DNA of 49,898 nt from Aquisalinus sp. (lineage in GTDB: Bacteria > Pseudomonadota > Alphaproteobacteria > Caulobacterales > Parvularculaceae), in the NCBI GenBank assembly GCA_022763115.1, contig JALEGJ010000025.1:1-49898 (forward strand). The letters are read 5' to 3'. The position numbers were made by a program, and so were the translations under genes. The notes beneath the pieces are model-generated. The model did not search any database. It was not told where the DNA came from and saw only the letters and a program-made list of their open reading frames with translations. Within the stretch, counting starts at the first letter, position 1, and every line of letters begins with the position of its first letter. Below are positions 2,255 to 38,204 of this stretch, piece after piece.

Positions 2255-4738
2255 ATGGGCAGGATTTTTCACAGATCATGCGTATTTGCGAGCGTTCTCA
2301 CGCGCGAGTCACTCTACTTGAGTCGTATGGTACTGCGATATGCCTTCCTGAAGCCGCTTCCCCGGAAGCTTGCTGCCGTTGCTGCTGCAACGCTGACCAC
2401 AGCGTCTGCCATCGCGTATGCACAACTTGCGCCCAACCGTGACGAGATTGTCCTGTTTGAAGCGGATATCATCAATCGGGCCAGTACTGACAGTCCGATC
2501 ATCGCGGAAGGAAACGTCAAGGCCTATTTCGGCGAGCAGTTCCTGACGTCCGACCGGGTCATTTATAATCCCACAACAGATATCGTTATCGCTGTGGGCA
2601 ATGTATCCATCACGGATACAGATGGCTTGACCTACTTCGCGGATGAAGTCGAACTCACTGGGGATCTTGCTGACGGAATTGCCACCAACTTCTCTGCGTT
2701 ACTCGAAAATAATTCCAAGCTGGCTGGCAATACAGTTGTCAAAACCGGCGATGAACGGAACGAATTGTCGCGTGCTGTTTACACCTCATGTGAAGTTTGT
2801 ACGGAAAGTGGTGACGAGAAACGACCGACCTGGCAGGTAAAGGCCTTACGCGTAACGCAAGACAGGGAAAATGAGGTCATTCGATTCAGAGACGCTCGTC
2901 TAGAAGTACTTGGCGTCCCTGCCCTCTACCTGCCTTACATGCAGATTCCAGAACCGTCCGTTGAGAGACAGTCAGGCTTCCTCACACCTGACTTTGGAAC
3001 GACGACGCAACAAGGGATATATCTGGAGACGCCTTATTATATTGCTATCTCGGATAATCAGGATGCTACCGTTGCTGCCAGATATATGGAGCGGCAGGGG
3101 ATTCTTTATCGTGGTGAATATCGCTTCAAAGCAAGTCGGGGCGAAGCAGTATTGCAAGGTGGGGTGATTGATACGCGAAATTCCGAAATAGAGGCGCGTC
3201 TGGATGATATTACTCAGCGCGATCTTGTTACCCAGGAATTGCTGTTTGACTCTGATGGAAACCGTATCCTTAGAGCCAATGCCGACGGTCGTTCCGTGCC
3301 CGGCACAAGGTTTCACTTTTTTGGCGAAGGTGAATACAGGTTTGCAGACAATTGGCAGCTCGGATTTGATGCTGAGTATGCTTCAGACAAGTTTTACCTG
3401 CTAACATATGATGTGCAGCCCGAAGGCGATCTTCGTAACGCACGCGGAGTATTCAGGCCAGACCGTCTGTCCAGCAACATCAATCTTCAACGCCGTACAG
3501 AGAATACCTTATTTTCAGCTGAATTTTTGGGATTCAAGACTTTGCGGCTGAACGAAGATAACGACAATGTGGGCCACGGCCTGCCGCGCATCCAGTATAG
3601 TGCCAATATGTTTGACACACCTTTGATTGGTGGTCAGACGAACTTTAATGCAAGCTTTATAGCGTTGGAAAGAAATGACGGTGTGTCAAGCCAGCGCGCA
3701 ACATTGGCAGCGCAGTGGGATAGGGTTTTCACCTCTTCAGGCGGTCATCGTTTCAAGCTTTACGCCGAATTACGTGGTGATGCTTATAGTTTCAGCCGTC
3801 TCGACCGAGGTAGCGAGGTTTGTAATGACAGCGCCGGGACCAACAGCTTTGAAGCCTGCTTGCAAACCTTCCCTGGTCAGGGAGAAGATCAATCCTCTTC
3901 GAAAAGTCGGCTACTGCCAACTGCCGGTGTTGAATGGTCTTACCCGCTCGTTCGAAGAGGGCAAAATTCGACTGTCATCATTGAGCCGAAAGTCCAGCTG
4001 ATTACAGCGACCGACGAGGATTTTAACAGTGAACGGTTCGATACTGAAGGAAACCGGTTCCTCTTGCCGGAGATTGTCAACGAAGACTCTCAATTTTTCC
4101 AGTTTGACACTACCAGCCTGTTCGACTGGAACAAGTCATCCGGCTATGACCTCTGGGAGAATGGTAACAGAGCCAATGTCGGCCTGAATGCCTCTGCCGT
4201 TTTTGACAATGGCCTCACCATGAAAGGTGCCATCGGACAGCAGTTTCGCGATCAGGAAACAACTGCCTATGAGGCATACTTTCTCTCGCCGGGGTTAGGT
4301 GCCACTGAATCCGATATTGTTGGCGCATTCAGCATCGGCAAGCGTGGTGTTTTCAATTTTGATAACAGGTTCAGGCTGGACAAGGATGACGCGAGTATCC
4401 GCCGGGCGGAAAGCACTTTCACGGGCAGGTTTGGGCGGTTCGGCACGAACCTTTCTTATGTGAAAGTGGACACGATAAATGTCGACGAAACCGAGAATGA
4501 TAATGAATTTCTTTTAAGCGGCGTCTCCTACAATATTACTGATAACTGGACCGTCGGTGCGCGTCAGCGAAATGAAATCAGCAGGGGGCGGGTAACTCAA
4601 CAGATTATTTCCCTGGGTTACCGCGATGAATGCAGCAGCCTTCTGCTGGCTTACCGTATCGATAACACCAATGCAGGGGGGCTGGAGTTCGGCAACTCCC
4701 TGACCATAAATCTCGAGTTAAGTGGTTTTGGTAATTAA
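2255..4738 (+). CDS. lptD: LPS-assembly protein LptD, outer-membrane translocon
   Basis: LptD forms the outer-membrane barrel that, with the LptE lipoprotein, places LPS on the cell surface. The 827-residue reading frame has an N-terminal OstA/LptA-like beta-jellyroll (about residues 65-170) and a long C-terminal barrel with alternating aromatic strands. Cys179 and Cys182 (CEVC) and the C-terminal DECSS stretch resemble the cysteines that form structural disulfides in LptD, although the C-terminal adjacent Cys-Cys pair of E. coli is a single cysteine here. The start is uncertain. ATG 2255 lies three bases after lptG, but ATG 2327 gives a much cleaner signal peptide (positive MVLRYAFLKPLPRK, hydrophobic core, cleavage near AYA-Q), so the true protein may be about 803 residues. 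Confidence 0.93.
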   Translation: MGRIFHRSCVFASVLTRESLYLSRMVLRYAFLKPLPRKLAAVAAATLTTASAIAYAQLAPNRDEIVLFEADIINRASTDSPIIAEGNVKAYFGEQFLTSDRVIYNPTTDIVIAVGNVSITDTDGLTYFADEVELTGDLADGIATNFSALLENNSKLAGNTVVKTGDERNELSRAVYTSCEVCTESGDEKRPTWQVKALRVTQDRENEVIRFRDARLEVLGVPALYLPYMQIPEPSVERQSGFLTPDFGTTTQQGIYLETPYYIAISDNQDATVAARYMERQGILYRGEYRFKASRGEAVLQGGVIDTRNSEIEARLDDITQRDLVTQELLFDSDGNRILRANADGRSVPGTRFHFFGEGEYRFADNWQLGFDAEYASDKFYLLTYDVQPEGDLRNARGVFRPDRLSSNINLQRRTENTLFSAEFLGFKTLRLNEDNDNVGHGLPRIQYSANMFDTPLIGGQTNFNASFIALERNDGVSSQRATLAAQWDRVFTSSGGHRFKLYAELRGDAYSFSRLDRGSEVCNDSAGTNSFEACLQTFPGQGEDQSSSKSRLLPTAGVEWSYPLVRRGQNSTVIIEPKVQLITATDEDFNSERFDTEGNRFLLPEIVNEDSQFFQFDTTSLFDWNKSSGYDLWENGNRANVGLNASAVFDNGLTMKGAIGQQFRDQETTAYEAYFLSPGLGATESDIVGAFSIGKRGVFNFDNRFRLDKDDASIRRAESTFTGRFGRFGTNLSYVKVDTINVDETENDNEFLLSGVSYNITDNWTVGARQRNEISRGRVTQQIISLGYRDECSSLLLAYRIDNTNAGGLEFGNSLTINLELSGFGN

Positions 4739-4819
4739 AGCAGGCAGTTAGAGCGTTAATTACTGGTTGGGCCTGCTGCAGATAATTCGAGATTTACGGC
4801 TTTTTCACGCGCCATTTGC

Positions 4820-4847
4820 TTGCACATCATGCTTAATGCGGTATTTT
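4820..4847 (+). promoter_or_regulatory. Possible sigma-70 promoter for surA
   Basis: In the 124-base gap after lptD there is TTGCAC at 4820-4825, a 16-base spacer and TATTTT at 4842-4847. The predicted start of transcription lies near 4854. That is very close to the upstream surA start codon (4863) and comfortable for the second one (4884). The match is by eye and only moderate, and readthrough from lptD is equally possible. Confidence 0.3.
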
Positions 4848-4862
4848 CCGGAATAACCTGAC

Positions 4863-6170
4863 ATGACAAGGTATCATAAAATCATGGCGTATATCTCTAA
4901 GTTCATTTTGTCTTCTGCCACCGGACTTGCCGCTCTGTTCTGCGCAGCCTCTGCGCAGGCCCAACAGGTACAGGCGTCCGAAGCAGTGGCCGCCACGGTT
5001 AATGACGAAATGATTTCCACATTTGATGTGTCTCAACGCATGCGCCTCATGCTTTTGACATCCGGGGGGCGCATTCCAGAGTCTGCCTACCCGCAACTTC
5101 AGCGCCGTGCCTTGCAGGATCTTGTTGATGAGAAAGTCAAACTTCAGGAAGCAAAACGCCTCGAATTCAAAATAAATCCAGAACAGGTTGAGGAAGAATT
5201 TGGTCGCATTGCAGCATCCGTGGGTGCAACGATACCTCAACTGGAACAACAACTTCTTTCCCAACAAATTGCCCCGTCAACATTGCGTGACCAGCTTCGT
5301 TCTCGGCTCGTATGGCAACGACTTGTCGCTGCACGTTACAGAGATCGTGTTCGCGTCAGTGACGAAGAAGTTGATGAAGTGATGCACAGGTTGCTCGCGG
5401 ATACGCGTAAAGAGCAATATCTCATTTCCGAAATCTGCTTGCCGATCGAGGATGATTCCAGCTCTCAGGAAATTTATAATGCAGGCATGCAGATGATTGA
5501 ACAGATGCGCAATGGCGTACCATTCGATGCATTGGCACGTCAGTTCTCTTACTGCACTTCTGCCGCTAATGGCGGTGATCGTGGGTGGACAACGCTTGCG
5601 GAAATGGACCCTGAACTCGCAACTGTTGTCGAGAAACTGAATGAAGGCAGCGTGTCCATACCAACCCCTCACGATGGCATGATGCATATTATGGCTGTCC
5701 GTTCAAAGCGGGAGCCCAGAGAAGCAGGTACAAAGACATATGAAGTAGCCTATGCAGGTGCTCCACTATATGTCGGTGAGCAAACAGCTCGGGAAGCTTT
5801 TGCCAAACTCAACCAGACCAATGTCTGTGCCGGGACGGGTGAGCTGAGTATTGATCTGGGCACTGATATTGGCGTGACTCTGCTTTCAAACGTCCCCGCT
5901 GATGCCATGGAGTTACCGTTTCGAGGCCCTGTTGACGCCCTGGAGCGAGGTCAGACCACAGACCTGATTGCAACGGCCAATGGTTACCACGCCCTTCTTC
6001 TTTGCTCGAAAGATGAAGGCCTTGGTTTACCGCCACGCGAGGCTATTGAAGACAAACTCTTCGCTGACCAACTTGAGCTCATCTCCCGCCGTTACCTTCG
6101 CGATCTAAAACGCGATTCGGCGGTCGACATGCGCCTGACGAAGAGCACAGAAGATAACGATAATTCCTGA
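4863..6170 (+). CDS. surA: Periplasmic chaperone / peptidyl-prolyl isomerase SurA
   Basis: SurA escorts unfolded outer-membrane proteins, LptD among them, across the periplasm. The product has a signal peptide ending near AQA-Q (about residue 33), a SurA N-terminal helical domain (about 40-170) with the typical LQDLVDEKVKLQEAKRL helix, and one recognisable parvulin rotamase domain (about 185-285, containing the SYCTSAANGGDRGW stretch). The C-terminal part, about 290-400, is a weaker second parvulin-like region. ATG 4884 is an alternative start seven codons downstream and gives a tidier signal peptide. Its position just after lptD is the usual one and fits its client relationship with LptD. 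Confidence 0.9.
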   Translation: MTRYHKIMAYISKFILSSATGLAALFCAASAQAQQVQASEAVAATVNDEMISTFDVSQRMRLMLLTSGGRIPESAYPQLQRRALQDLVDEKVKLQEAKRLEFKINPEQVEEEFGRIAASVGATIPQLEQQLLSQQIAPSTLRDQLRSRLVWQRLVAARYRDRVRVSDEEVDEVMHRLLADTRKEQYLISEICLPIEDDSSSQEIYNAGMQMIEQMRNGVPFDALARQFSYCTSAANGGDRGWTTLAEMDPELATVVEKLNEGSVSIPTPHDGMMHIMAVRSKREPREAGTKTYEVAYAGAPLYVGEQTAREAFAKLNQTNVCAGTGELSIDLGTDIGVTLLSNVPADAMELPFRGPVDALERGQTTDLIATANGYHALLLCSKDEGLGLPPREAIEDKLFADQLELISRRYLRDLKRDSAVDMRLTKSTEDNDNS

Positions 6171-36003: not shown

Positions 36004-36091
36004 GTTGAGCAAATATAGCTTTACAACTATGGGTTGTGTGTGTCTTACTGTACGCGCGCTGATTGAGCGTGACGTCTGTAAGGAGCAAGAC

Positions 36092-36226
36092 ATGCAGAAA
36101 ATCGACATCAATGACATTCCGGTTTTGTCATACGACGCTGGTATTCCTGACACCCGGTGGGGGGAAACGTCCTCCAGTGCTGTCACCGGCGTGATTGTCA
36201 GCATTATCGTACTGTTGACTGACTAA
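36092..36226 (+). CDS. 44-residue peptide, candidate precursor of a modified peptide
   Basis: A strong TAAGGAG site (36079-36085) stands six bases before ATG 36092, the best ribosome-binding site in this part of the window. This supports the 44-residue frame rather than the longer one open from 36005. The peptide has an acidic, leader-like first half (MQKIDINDIPVLSYDAGI), then PDTRWGETSSS, and a hydrophobic, valine/isoleucine-rich end (AVTGVIVSIIVLLTD). The arrangement of small peptide, hairpin and paired downstream genes resembles operons for ribosomally made, post-translationally modified peptides. The alternative is a one-helix membrane micropeptide. Only weak promoter-like boxes are visible upstream (TTTACA at 36020; TTGAGC at 36005). 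No known family recognised. Confidence 0.6.
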   Translation: MQKIDINDIPVLSYDAGIPDTRWGETSSSAVTGVIVSIIVLLTD

Positions 36227-36234
36227 ATGAGCAC

Positions 36235-36264
36235 AAGTGCGCGCTGCAGAGTTGGTGCGCACTT
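36235..36264 (+). terminator. Hairpin between peptide gene and HEAT-protein genes
   Basis: A perfect eight-base inverted repeat, AAGTGCGC (36235-36242) and GCGCACTT (36257-36264), can be extended inward by one C-G and two G-T pairs to an 11-pair stem with an eight-base loop. Only CTTCT follows, so it is not a textbook terminator. It may act as a partial terminator or as an RNA-stabilising end that raises the amount of the peptide message over the downstream genes. Confidence 0.5.
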
Positions 36265-36285
36265 CTTCTACGACAAAGCACCCAG

Positions 36286-37269
36286 ATGACAGTTTTCGCC
36301 CCAACACAATCAGATGCTAGAAAAACTGACCTGAAAGCGTCTGACGCCTATTTGAAAATGCTCTTTGCCTTACAGCGAGAGACACGGGATTTTTACCGCG
36401 ATCACATCCCCCTCGCCCGAACAGTAGAGGCCATAGAAAATCTGTCTGCCCCGACGACAGAAGCGATCATCCGTATTGCAGAGGAAAATCTCGACTTTGA
36501 GGCCATCAAGCCGTTAATCGATTTCGAAACAAGTCGCTACCGATCTTTTCCCTTATACTACTCGCCCATGACAGCCCTGAACACTGGTGCTGTCACAGGT
36601 TGGGTTCTCATCAATCACCCAAAAGTCCTGGTAATGCTGATCGCCTTTGATCCGACCGAATTCCGTACACAAAAACTTCTGGGACGGATGAATGAAACGA
36701 TCAACTTCTCGGCGGGGGATATTTCTCTGCGTCTTCTTAAATCAGATGGCTTCACCTGCTCTCATTGGCGCGCGCCCTTACTGACTGATGAAAAATCTAT
36801 CGATGGTGACCTGCACTGCGTCCATGACAAAACAGTGACTTATAAAACTGGTGAACGCATTTATACCAAGGGGGGGAAGGAAACGATCGTCTACGAAGAC
36901 GTCACCTCTCCGACGATTGGTATCCAGATATATTCACGCCAGTTCCGAACCAATGTCATGGTTGATTACGACCCTGAAACACATCTGGTCAAAACCCTCT
37001 CAGCAGCGGATCAACGGTCTAGTCGAATGCAGATGCTTAATACTGTCGCCCGTCTTTTTGAACGGGAAGATGCCATTGGCCCGATGCAATCCCTGATGCA
37101 GCATCCAGACCATTATGTCCGCTGGCAAACGGCGCGCGAGTTAATTGCGCTTGAGCCGGAAGCAGCCGAAATGCCTTTGCGGGTAATGAGCAAGCAGGAT
37201 GCGAACCCTGATGTACGTGCCATGGCAGCAAAAACACTGGAAATATTTTATGCACAGGAGCCTTCCTGA
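36286..37269 (+). CDS. HEAT-repeat protein with degenerate cupin-like core
   Basis: I do not recognise this family. The 327-residue protein has a helical N-terminal part (about 15-85), a central beta-rich region (about 100-228) and C-terminal helical pairs that look like HEAT repeats (about 262-320: DHYVRWQTARELIALEP, NPDVRAMAAKTLEIF). It resembles the next gene's product in plan and in short blocks. Where that protein has the cupin ligands HDH and a late histidine, this one has CSHW (158-161) and threonine-rich sequence, so its metal site seems lost. No membrane helix or signal is visible. It is coupled to the next gene by a one-base overlap. Its ATG lacks a clear ribosome-binding site. Role as the non-catalytic partner of a heterodimer is inference. 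Confidence 0.65.
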   Translation: MTVFAPTQSDARKTDLKASDAYLKMLFALQRETRDFYRDHIPLARTVEAIENLSAPTTEAIIRIAEENLDFEAIKPLIDFETSRYRSFPLYYSPMTALNTGAVTGWVLINHPKVLVMLIAFDPTEFRTQKLLGRMNETINFSAGDISLRLLKSDGFTCSHWRAPLLTDEKSIDGDLHCVHDKTVTYKTGERIYTKGGKETIVYEDVTSPTIGIQIYSRQFRTNVMVDYDPETHLVKTLSAADQRSSRMQMLNTVARLFEREDAIGPMQSLMQHPDHYVRWQTARELIALEPEAAEMPLRVMSKQDANPDVRAMAAKTLEIFYAQEPS

Positions 37270-38204
37270 TGCCCCTTCATATTGATACGGATGAAACAGA
37301 CGTTTTTTCGCTGGACGATCTAATCGAGTGGTTGAAAGTCAACCAGATTGATACTTCTTCTACTGATGCTATGGTTAAGGCGGCGCCAGCTCTGAAGAAA
37401 CTCGCAAATAATCGAGAATTTTTGGCAAGTCTCGCAGTTTCAGAACTAAAAGATGCCTATTCGTATGATCGGCATATATATCATTACTCCGCACAGGTGA
37501 TGTTGTTACATCTGCCTGAAAAACAGCAGGATAACTTTTATCTTCGTGCCAATTTCTGGCCTTCCGTCAAGGATCAACCTGTCATTGCTGCGGGACCCGG
37601 GCCGTTTTTTTATAACCGTCCGCATGACCATAATTTCAACTTTCTGACAGTCGGATACTTTGGCCCTGGTTACTGGAGTAATTATTACGAGTACGACCAC
37701 GACAGGATAACCGGTTATCCCGGTGAGACGGTTGATGATCTCGTTTTCACTGAAAAAAGAGCCCTGACCGAAGGTCACGTCATGCTCTACCGTGCGTCAC
37801 GTGACGTTCATGAACAGCTACCCGCCGACAGTATGTCCATCAGTCTCAATATCCTGGAAAATTCTCCGCGGGTCAGGCTGACCGATCAGTATTCTTTTGA
37901 TCTCGAGCGCAAGGCCATCAAGCAGATCATAAATATCTCGCTTGCTCCGGCAGTGTTCAACATCGCCCTGCATCTTGGCGACAGAAATGGCGAGGATGTC
38001 CTGTCTGAAATAATCCGATTGTCACCTGATCCGTTTATCCGCTTCAACGCTTACAAGGCTCTGGCGAGCAGGCAAAGTGGCCCGCAAGCATATTGCGAAG
38101 GCTTGTCAGCAGCTTTGTCCGATCCGTCTAACATGGTGAATAGATGGGCAAGCCGTCACATCGCAGACGTGGAGAGGGCCATGACTCAGTCTGTTTCCGT
38201 CTAA
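37269..38204 (+). CDS. HEAT-repeat protein with cupin-type metal site
   Basis: The 311-residue protein repeats the plan of its neighbour: helical N-terminus (about 10-85), central beta-sandwich (about 90-210) and C-terminal HEAT-like pairs (about 243-303: SPDPFIRFNAYKALAS, SNMVNRWASRHIADVE). The core holds His119 and His121 in RPHDHNFNFLT, Glu141 in NYYEYD and His181 in SRDVHEQLP. These are spaced like cupin motifs 1 and 2, as in cysteine-dioxygenase-like iron enzymes. It is therefore a candidate oxygenase. Its ATG overlaps the stop of the previous gene by one base, so the two proteins are likely made together. The substrate is unknown; the 44-residue peptide encoded upstream is the obvious suspect. 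The fold assignment is by eye. Confidence 0.65.
   Translation: MPLHIDTDETDVFSLDDLIEWLKVNQIDTSSTDAMVKAAPALKKLANNREFLASLAVSELKDAYSYDRHIYHYSAQVMLLHLPEKQQDNFYLRANFWPSVKDQPVIAAGPGPFFYNRPHDHNFNFLTVGYFGPGYWSNYYEYDHDRITGYPGETVDDLVFTEKRALTEGHVMLYRASRDVHEQLPADSMSISLNILENSPRVRLTDQYSFDLERKAIKQIINISLAPAVFNIALHLGDRNGEDVLSEIIRLSPDPFIRFNAYKALASRQSGPQAYCEGLSAALSDPSNMVNRWASRHIADVERAMTQSVSV

Follow-up and report, generated by a model that had tools for sequence, protein, structure and literature searches.

A three-gene cassette in the Aquisalinus window

The window, a stretch of 49,898 nucleotides from a contig of Aquisalinus (Parvularculaceae, Alphaproteobacteria), carries a compact cassette of a short peptide gene followed by two longer genes, here called A and B, set between ordinary genes for RecG upstream and DUF502 downstream (Table 1). 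A reading made beforehand from the letters alone, hereafter the sequence-only reading, had described a 44-residue peptide with a ribosome-binding site ahead of two coupled genes of similar size, and this layout holds in full, with A and B overlapping by one base (37269). No exporter or leader protease was recognised beside the cassette within the window, and searches of the cassette with Pfam, NCBIfam and PADLOC gave no family match beyond HEAT_2. The closest named relative is a contig of an Aquisalinus metagenome-assembled genome (MAG; L002), whose B is 91% identical. In two genomes of the same genus (G003 and G004) RecG adjoins DUF502 and the cassette is absent between them, so that the three genes were gained or lost together.

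Table 1. Positions and features of the cassette in the window
Feature	Positions	Strand	Description
Upstream dyad	36020..36037	+	Seen in the sequence as TTTACAACTATGGGTTGT, in the window ACAACTATGGGTTGT (ACAAC-N5-GTTGT); possibly an operator or part of a promoter
Ribosome-binding site of the peptide gene	36080..36085	+	AAGGAG, a few nt 5' of the ATG
Peptide gene	36092..36226	+	ORF of 44 aa, MQKIDINDIPVLSYDAGIPDTRWGETSSSAVTGVIVSIIVLLTD; leader MQKIDINDIPVLSYDAG..., hydrophobic C-terminal core ...AVTGVIVSIIVLLTD
Hairpin between peptide gene and A	36235..36264	+	Arms 36235-36245 and 36254-36264, 11 bp
Gene A	36286..37269	+	327 aa; N-terminus helical, beta core lacking the His site, HEAT repeats at the C-terminus
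Gene B	37269..38204	+	311 aa; N-terminus helical, beta core in which H119-D-H121 and H181-x-Q183 are invariant, HEAT-like repeats at the C-terminus
His119-Asp120-His121 codons of B	37623..37631	+	His119 and His121 invariant (90/90), Asp120 in 88/90
His181-Glu182-Gln183 codons of B	37809..37817	+	His181 and Gln183 invariant (90/90)

A conserved leader and a variable core in the peptide family

The sequence-only reading had expected homologous gene pairs to stand beside a short peptide gene, and this proved true of all 109 readable loci: each has a short peptide ORF just ahead of A, in nearly every case preceded by a ribosome-binding site (the peptide of locus L021 is doubtful; L008, cut by a contig end, was excluded). 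Peptides were chosen by position, ribosome-binding site and motif, about ten of them being placed by hand, and range from 36 to 68 aa. They have in common a leader of the form 'IDLssLPDLdt.tG.FGS', with the core motif [IL]D[LI]xxLPxLxxxxGxxGS; the columns of the leader reach 3-3.7 bits and those of the linker fall to 0.5-1.4 bits. The C-terminal cores are short, hydrophobic and variable, comprising a DDxIVxxMVYxYE type, a GGxxCxG type, a type beginning with HP and a Val/Ile-rich type to which the window's peptide belongs. Core type tracks the tree of B, with 11 changes against a mean of 31.9 after shuffling. No core residue is common to all peptides, and most cores are devoid of Cys, the GGxxCxG group having a conserved one.

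The circularity of this selection is reduced by two profile searches. A profile built from the 59 DD-type peptides alone recovered 36 of the remaining 50 at the cost of a single weak false match (E=0.36) in 14,155 frames, and a profile of 30 sequences run against 40 whole genomes gave 23 matches, 21 of them beside A-B and the other two weak. Among 22 genomes lacking B, one had a match to the peptide profile, single and weak. In the window's own genome the peptide was matched at E=3e-11, the only other match (0.006) lying inside another frame. Comparison with the peptide of a congeneric species (L009) revealed 24 synonymous against 5 nonsynonymous changes (pN 0.05, pS 0.76), and these codon changes show purifying selection on the peptide of the window; a chance ORF was ruled out by the synonymous bias together with the conservation.

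A short precursor beside probable oxidative enzymes also recalls the way in which PqqA serves as the source of PQQ, and the peptide might likewise be consumed to make a small redox cofactor. We find this hardly credible for the cassette, since a cofactor source needs fixed residues and the core residues differ completely from clade to clade.

Residues, kinship and possible fold of A and B

Both products had been described as ending in HEAT-like repeats. With Pfam HEAT_2, A scores 31.0 bits, above the cut-off of 27.7, and B reaches 23.1 and stays below it. To B the sequence-only reading had further assigned a full set of cupin metal ligands (His119, His121, Glu141 and His181), which A appeared to have lost. 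In an alignment of 90 B sequences, reaching down to 27% identity to that of the window, the three histidines are among the ten invariant positions (W97, H119, H121, F123, Y135, H181, Q183, S190, N194 and Q207), but residue 141, located 20 residues after the HxH, is Glu in 80 sequences and Thr, Asp, Gln or Ala in the other 10. Because of this variation Glu141 is not a strict ligand, and three histidines with Gln183 and Asn194 describe the putative metal site better than three His and one Glu. The proposed loss in A was borne out: the HDH motif occurs in one of 88 aligned A sequences, no His is invariant, and invariance is limited to an Arg-Trp pair in the HEAT part. We propose that B is a three-His metal oxygenase and A a pseudoenzyme acting as its leader-binding partner.

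A relation between the two proteins had also been predicted, and the A and B profiles aligned over 246 columns with E=3.8e-9 and a score of 67.7, compared with at most 15.9 for shuffled columns. Most of this score comes from the HEAT part; with HEAT removed, it drops to 23.5 (hhalign probability 7%), and the highest of 148 shuffles reaches 21.5, so that common descent of the two cores is likely rather than strongly shown.

The fold of the B core was approached by comparison with known families. The 25 Pfam families listed for the 90 B members at E values up to 1 include no cupin, CDO_I (PF05995) is likewise absent from these listed matches, and kinship with Cupin_2 was rejected, the profile comparison being no better than shuffles. 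Against a CDO_I profile made from cysteine-dioxygenase-type proteins collected in this analysis, the B core gave a weak profile-profile score of 21.5, which none of 197 column shuffles equalled; the two HDH motifs coincide in this alignment, as do H181 and the third His. AlphaFold2 models made without deep alignments (pLDDT 46.5 for B with one close homologue and 37.3 for the B core alone) were too poor for use, and sequence searches of solved structures returned only HEAT/alphaRep chains and chance matches. With structural models so poor, the cupin-type fold of the B core is weakly supported, and on the profile comparisons it stays a well-motivated guess. Pfam and NCBIfam, whose profiles can miss divergent RREs, gave no match to a PqqD/RRE domain.

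The resemblance of the HDH...H arrangement to CDO_I raises a different function, in which B would be a thiol dioxygenase and its oxidation of the peptide would serve as an oxygen or redox signal. Plant cysteine oxidases and ADO oxidise protein N-termini in this manner, and the conserved Cys of the GGxxCxG peptides would suit such a role. The scarcity of Cys in the other cores does not, however, and the strong variation of the cores between clades is unlike the output of a sensor; we give this function a very small chance.

The intergenic hairpin and an upstream DNA element

The strong hairpin noted between the peptide gene and A is present (-17.8 kcal/mol) but is not unusual for its sequence in the window (z -1.1 relative to shuffles). 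Its counterparts are stronger in L009 (z -4.2) and in L011 (z -2.9), and it is seen in the window's genus and L011. As a family-wide feature it was dropped because in most loci the gap from the peptide stop to the start of A homology is about 30 nt. Where present, the hairpin may set the stoichiometry of peptide and enzymes.

The regions upstream of the peptide gene at the 109 loci revealed a second non-coding feature. At most loci of a second alphaproteobacterial family (code f17, considered below) a conserved element close to ATTACAATCTTTTAATTTC is found a few tens of bases 5' of the peptide gene, and palindromic variants such as TTACAAACTTGTAAC occur. The element is nearly unique per genome: with at most one mismatch, TTACAATNTTTTAATTTC occurs seven times in ten genomes, six of them at the cassette, and the reversed control does not occur. 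It is a candidate for a dedicated operator or promoter, and the dyad in the window is a possible counterpart of it.

Distribution and mobility of the cassette

Relatives of B were found in 5 of 100 near genomes and in 6 of 385 genomes in the class, one of these six being a weak HEAT-only match, as well as in 104 of the 299 species genomes sampled from f17, a family that we suspect to be Sphingomonadaceae. A further search of 398 genomes in the phylum gave 15, and relatives also occur in Gammaproteobacteria. Among the 129 loci fetched, 127 have A directly upstream of B, the two exceptions being a contig end and a divergent version on a Vibrio plasmid, and one cassette per genome is typical. Six f17 genomes (G623, G485, G726, G639, G688 and G765) have B genes with one in-frame stop codon, from which it seems that the system may be disappearing in some lineages.

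Plasmids carry two of the relatives, one of them in Alteromonas and the other, short and divergent, in Vibrio. In the tree, no B from outside the genus stands closer to that of Aquisalinus than the B of the Alteromonas plasmid, a position that suggests transfer between classes. The Vibrio version (L066; Vibrio sp. ED002 plasmid, 4210-5766) consists of two genes of 243 and 225 aa with no Pfam match, is located near a Tn3 transposase and a recombinase, and may be a HEAT-less form. Short proteins were also observed in a gammaproteobacterial genome (L063/L131, G882), where A (239 aa) and B (234 aa) are apparently without much of the HEAT part. A phage or defence origin was rejected, there being no phage match, no relative of B in the phages or viral contigs searched and no PADLOC model, the sole match to the PADLOC defence models being at chance level (E=0.059).

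Gain and loss as a unit and residence on plasmids are also habits of toxin-antitoxin or small-toxin modules, in which the peptide would be toxic inside the cell and A-B would neutralise it. The chance-level PADLOC result speaks against such a module, as does the usual single cassette per genome; moreover, a conserved leader with a variable core, served by two large proteins of which one has an invariant His site, is unlike known antitoxins. We consider a module of this kind to have a small probability.

Exporter genes at three loci

Most cassettes stand alone, with neither a protease nor a transporter within them. Exporter genes were found beside the cassette at three loci. On the Alteromonas stellipolaris plasmid pASTE61-200 (L065, 761-8929) the cassette is situated amid a run of efflux genes, its neighbours being HlyD, ABC, MacB and an ABC-2 system, and in G882 it is preceded by HlyD and RND efflux genes. 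The third locus, L149 (G763 contig 30, 5143-16956), is the richest version of the system seen: a sigma factor gene is followed by two tandem peptide-A-B cassettes, together containing at least three cassette-type peptides, and then by HlyD, ABC, FtsX/MacB and an ABC exporter.

Such neighbours, taken with the hydrophobic cores and the general experience that HEAT repeats often bind peptides, could also belong to a complex in which A and B bind, insert or give immunity to an unmodified bacteriocin-like or membrane peptide. A mere binder, however, would have no need of the HDH...H...Q site that is invariant in all 90 B sequences. The hydrophobic runs of the peptides are in addition seldom long enough to form a membrane helix (median 10, reaching 18 or more in 8 of the 109), and no constant transmembrane immunity gene accompanies the cassette. 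We regard a binding or immunity complex as unlikely.

A probable RiPP-like system

Taken together, the gene set and its conservation lead us to favour, as the probable explanation, a RiPP-like system in which an active/pseudoenzyme A-B heterodimer binds the leader of the peptide and B oxidises its core. The sequence-only reading had proposed an active/inactive heterodimeric oxygenase whose HEAT repeats bind the leader, a proposal that the present results support in part. A and B would have arisen from one ancestor, B keeping the three-histidine metal site, probably carried by a beta core of cupin type, and A losing it, and the two proteins would pair as a heterodimer. The HEAT-like ends, A, or both would hold the leader, B would oxidise a core residue with Fe(II) and O2, and the leader would then be removed and the product exported. 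As to the role of the product, an antagonistic or signalling peptide is our guess.

Several observations count against this RiPP-like explanation. No modified product of the cassette is known, and with no core residue shared by all peptides the target residue is not evident. Enzymes of the CDO type act on thiols, which most cores do not offer. The weak A-B similarity outside HEAT, the lack of a cupin match among the families searched and the poor structural models also weigh on the same side.

RiPPs are a known kind of product, and it is the enzyme pair and the leader that appear new. The sequence-only reading knew of no described system of this make-up, and no description of the A-B pair was found in the open-access literature; an account in a subscription journal or preprint is possible. 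We would go further, at slightly better than even odds, and regard the cassettes as a new RiPP class. Its hallmark would be a duplicated oxygenase pair, one member active with a three-His site and the other an inactive paralogue, each ending in HEAT repeats; the pair would recognise a novel leader and oxidise cores that are short and beta-branched. The class would be present in about one-third of the species sampled from a single large alphaproteobacterial family. Such a class would have been overlooked because its precursors are shorter than 70 residues and its enzymes match no profile. If this is true, the known peptide-modifying enzymes would be joined by a further family and the known leaders by a new type, and common environmental bacteria would make a peptide product that escapes the genome-mining profiles now in use. 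The duplicate, with one active and one inactive copy, would also be a clear case of a pseudoenzyme possibly recruited for substrate binding.

Comparison with known systems

Proteins of the HEAT_2 or PBS-lyase HEAT kind (PF13646) share the C-terminal repeats with A and B. HEAT makes up only the last third of A and B, and the family name is uninformative on the rest. The CDO-type three-His cupins (PF05995) share with B the HDH motif, a third His about 60 residues on and then an S-x-S-L strand, from which the cassette differs in its extra helical N-terminus, HEAT C-terminus, inactive paralogue and peptide gene, and in having no match to that Pfam family.

If B is a cupin-fold enzyme acting on a RiPP precursor, as proposed, it has a parallel in the biphenomycin-like clusters with PbsQ and BpmG, where PbsQ is a cupin-like (JmjC-type) hydroxylase acting on a residue of the precursor (PMC12257519). 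Unlike A-B, PbsQ is described as a relative of the JmjC-domain protein BpmG and is one enzyme in a multi-enzyme cluster, for which no HEAT pair is described.

The MNIO enzymes (DUF692), whose fold is a TIM barrel, constitute a separate multi-iron family, and neither A nor B has a Pfam or NCBIfam match to DUF692; judged by the tests of this analysis, the two proteins fall within neither this family nor that of PbsQ. The partner protein in MNIO systems is not known to be a relative of its catalytic subunit, whereas here the partner A is a relative of B. In gene arrangement the cassette is nevertheless like the methanobactin and 3-thiaglutamate systems, MbnB-MbnC and TglH-TglI, in which a short precursor gene is accompanied by two genes, one encoding an iron oxidase and the other a partner protein by which the leader is held and the core exposed (PMC12141560, PMC10880893). 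For the proposed mechanism MbnB-MbnC is the closest working parallel, its partner protein keeping hold of the leader and setting the core in position (PMC12141560).
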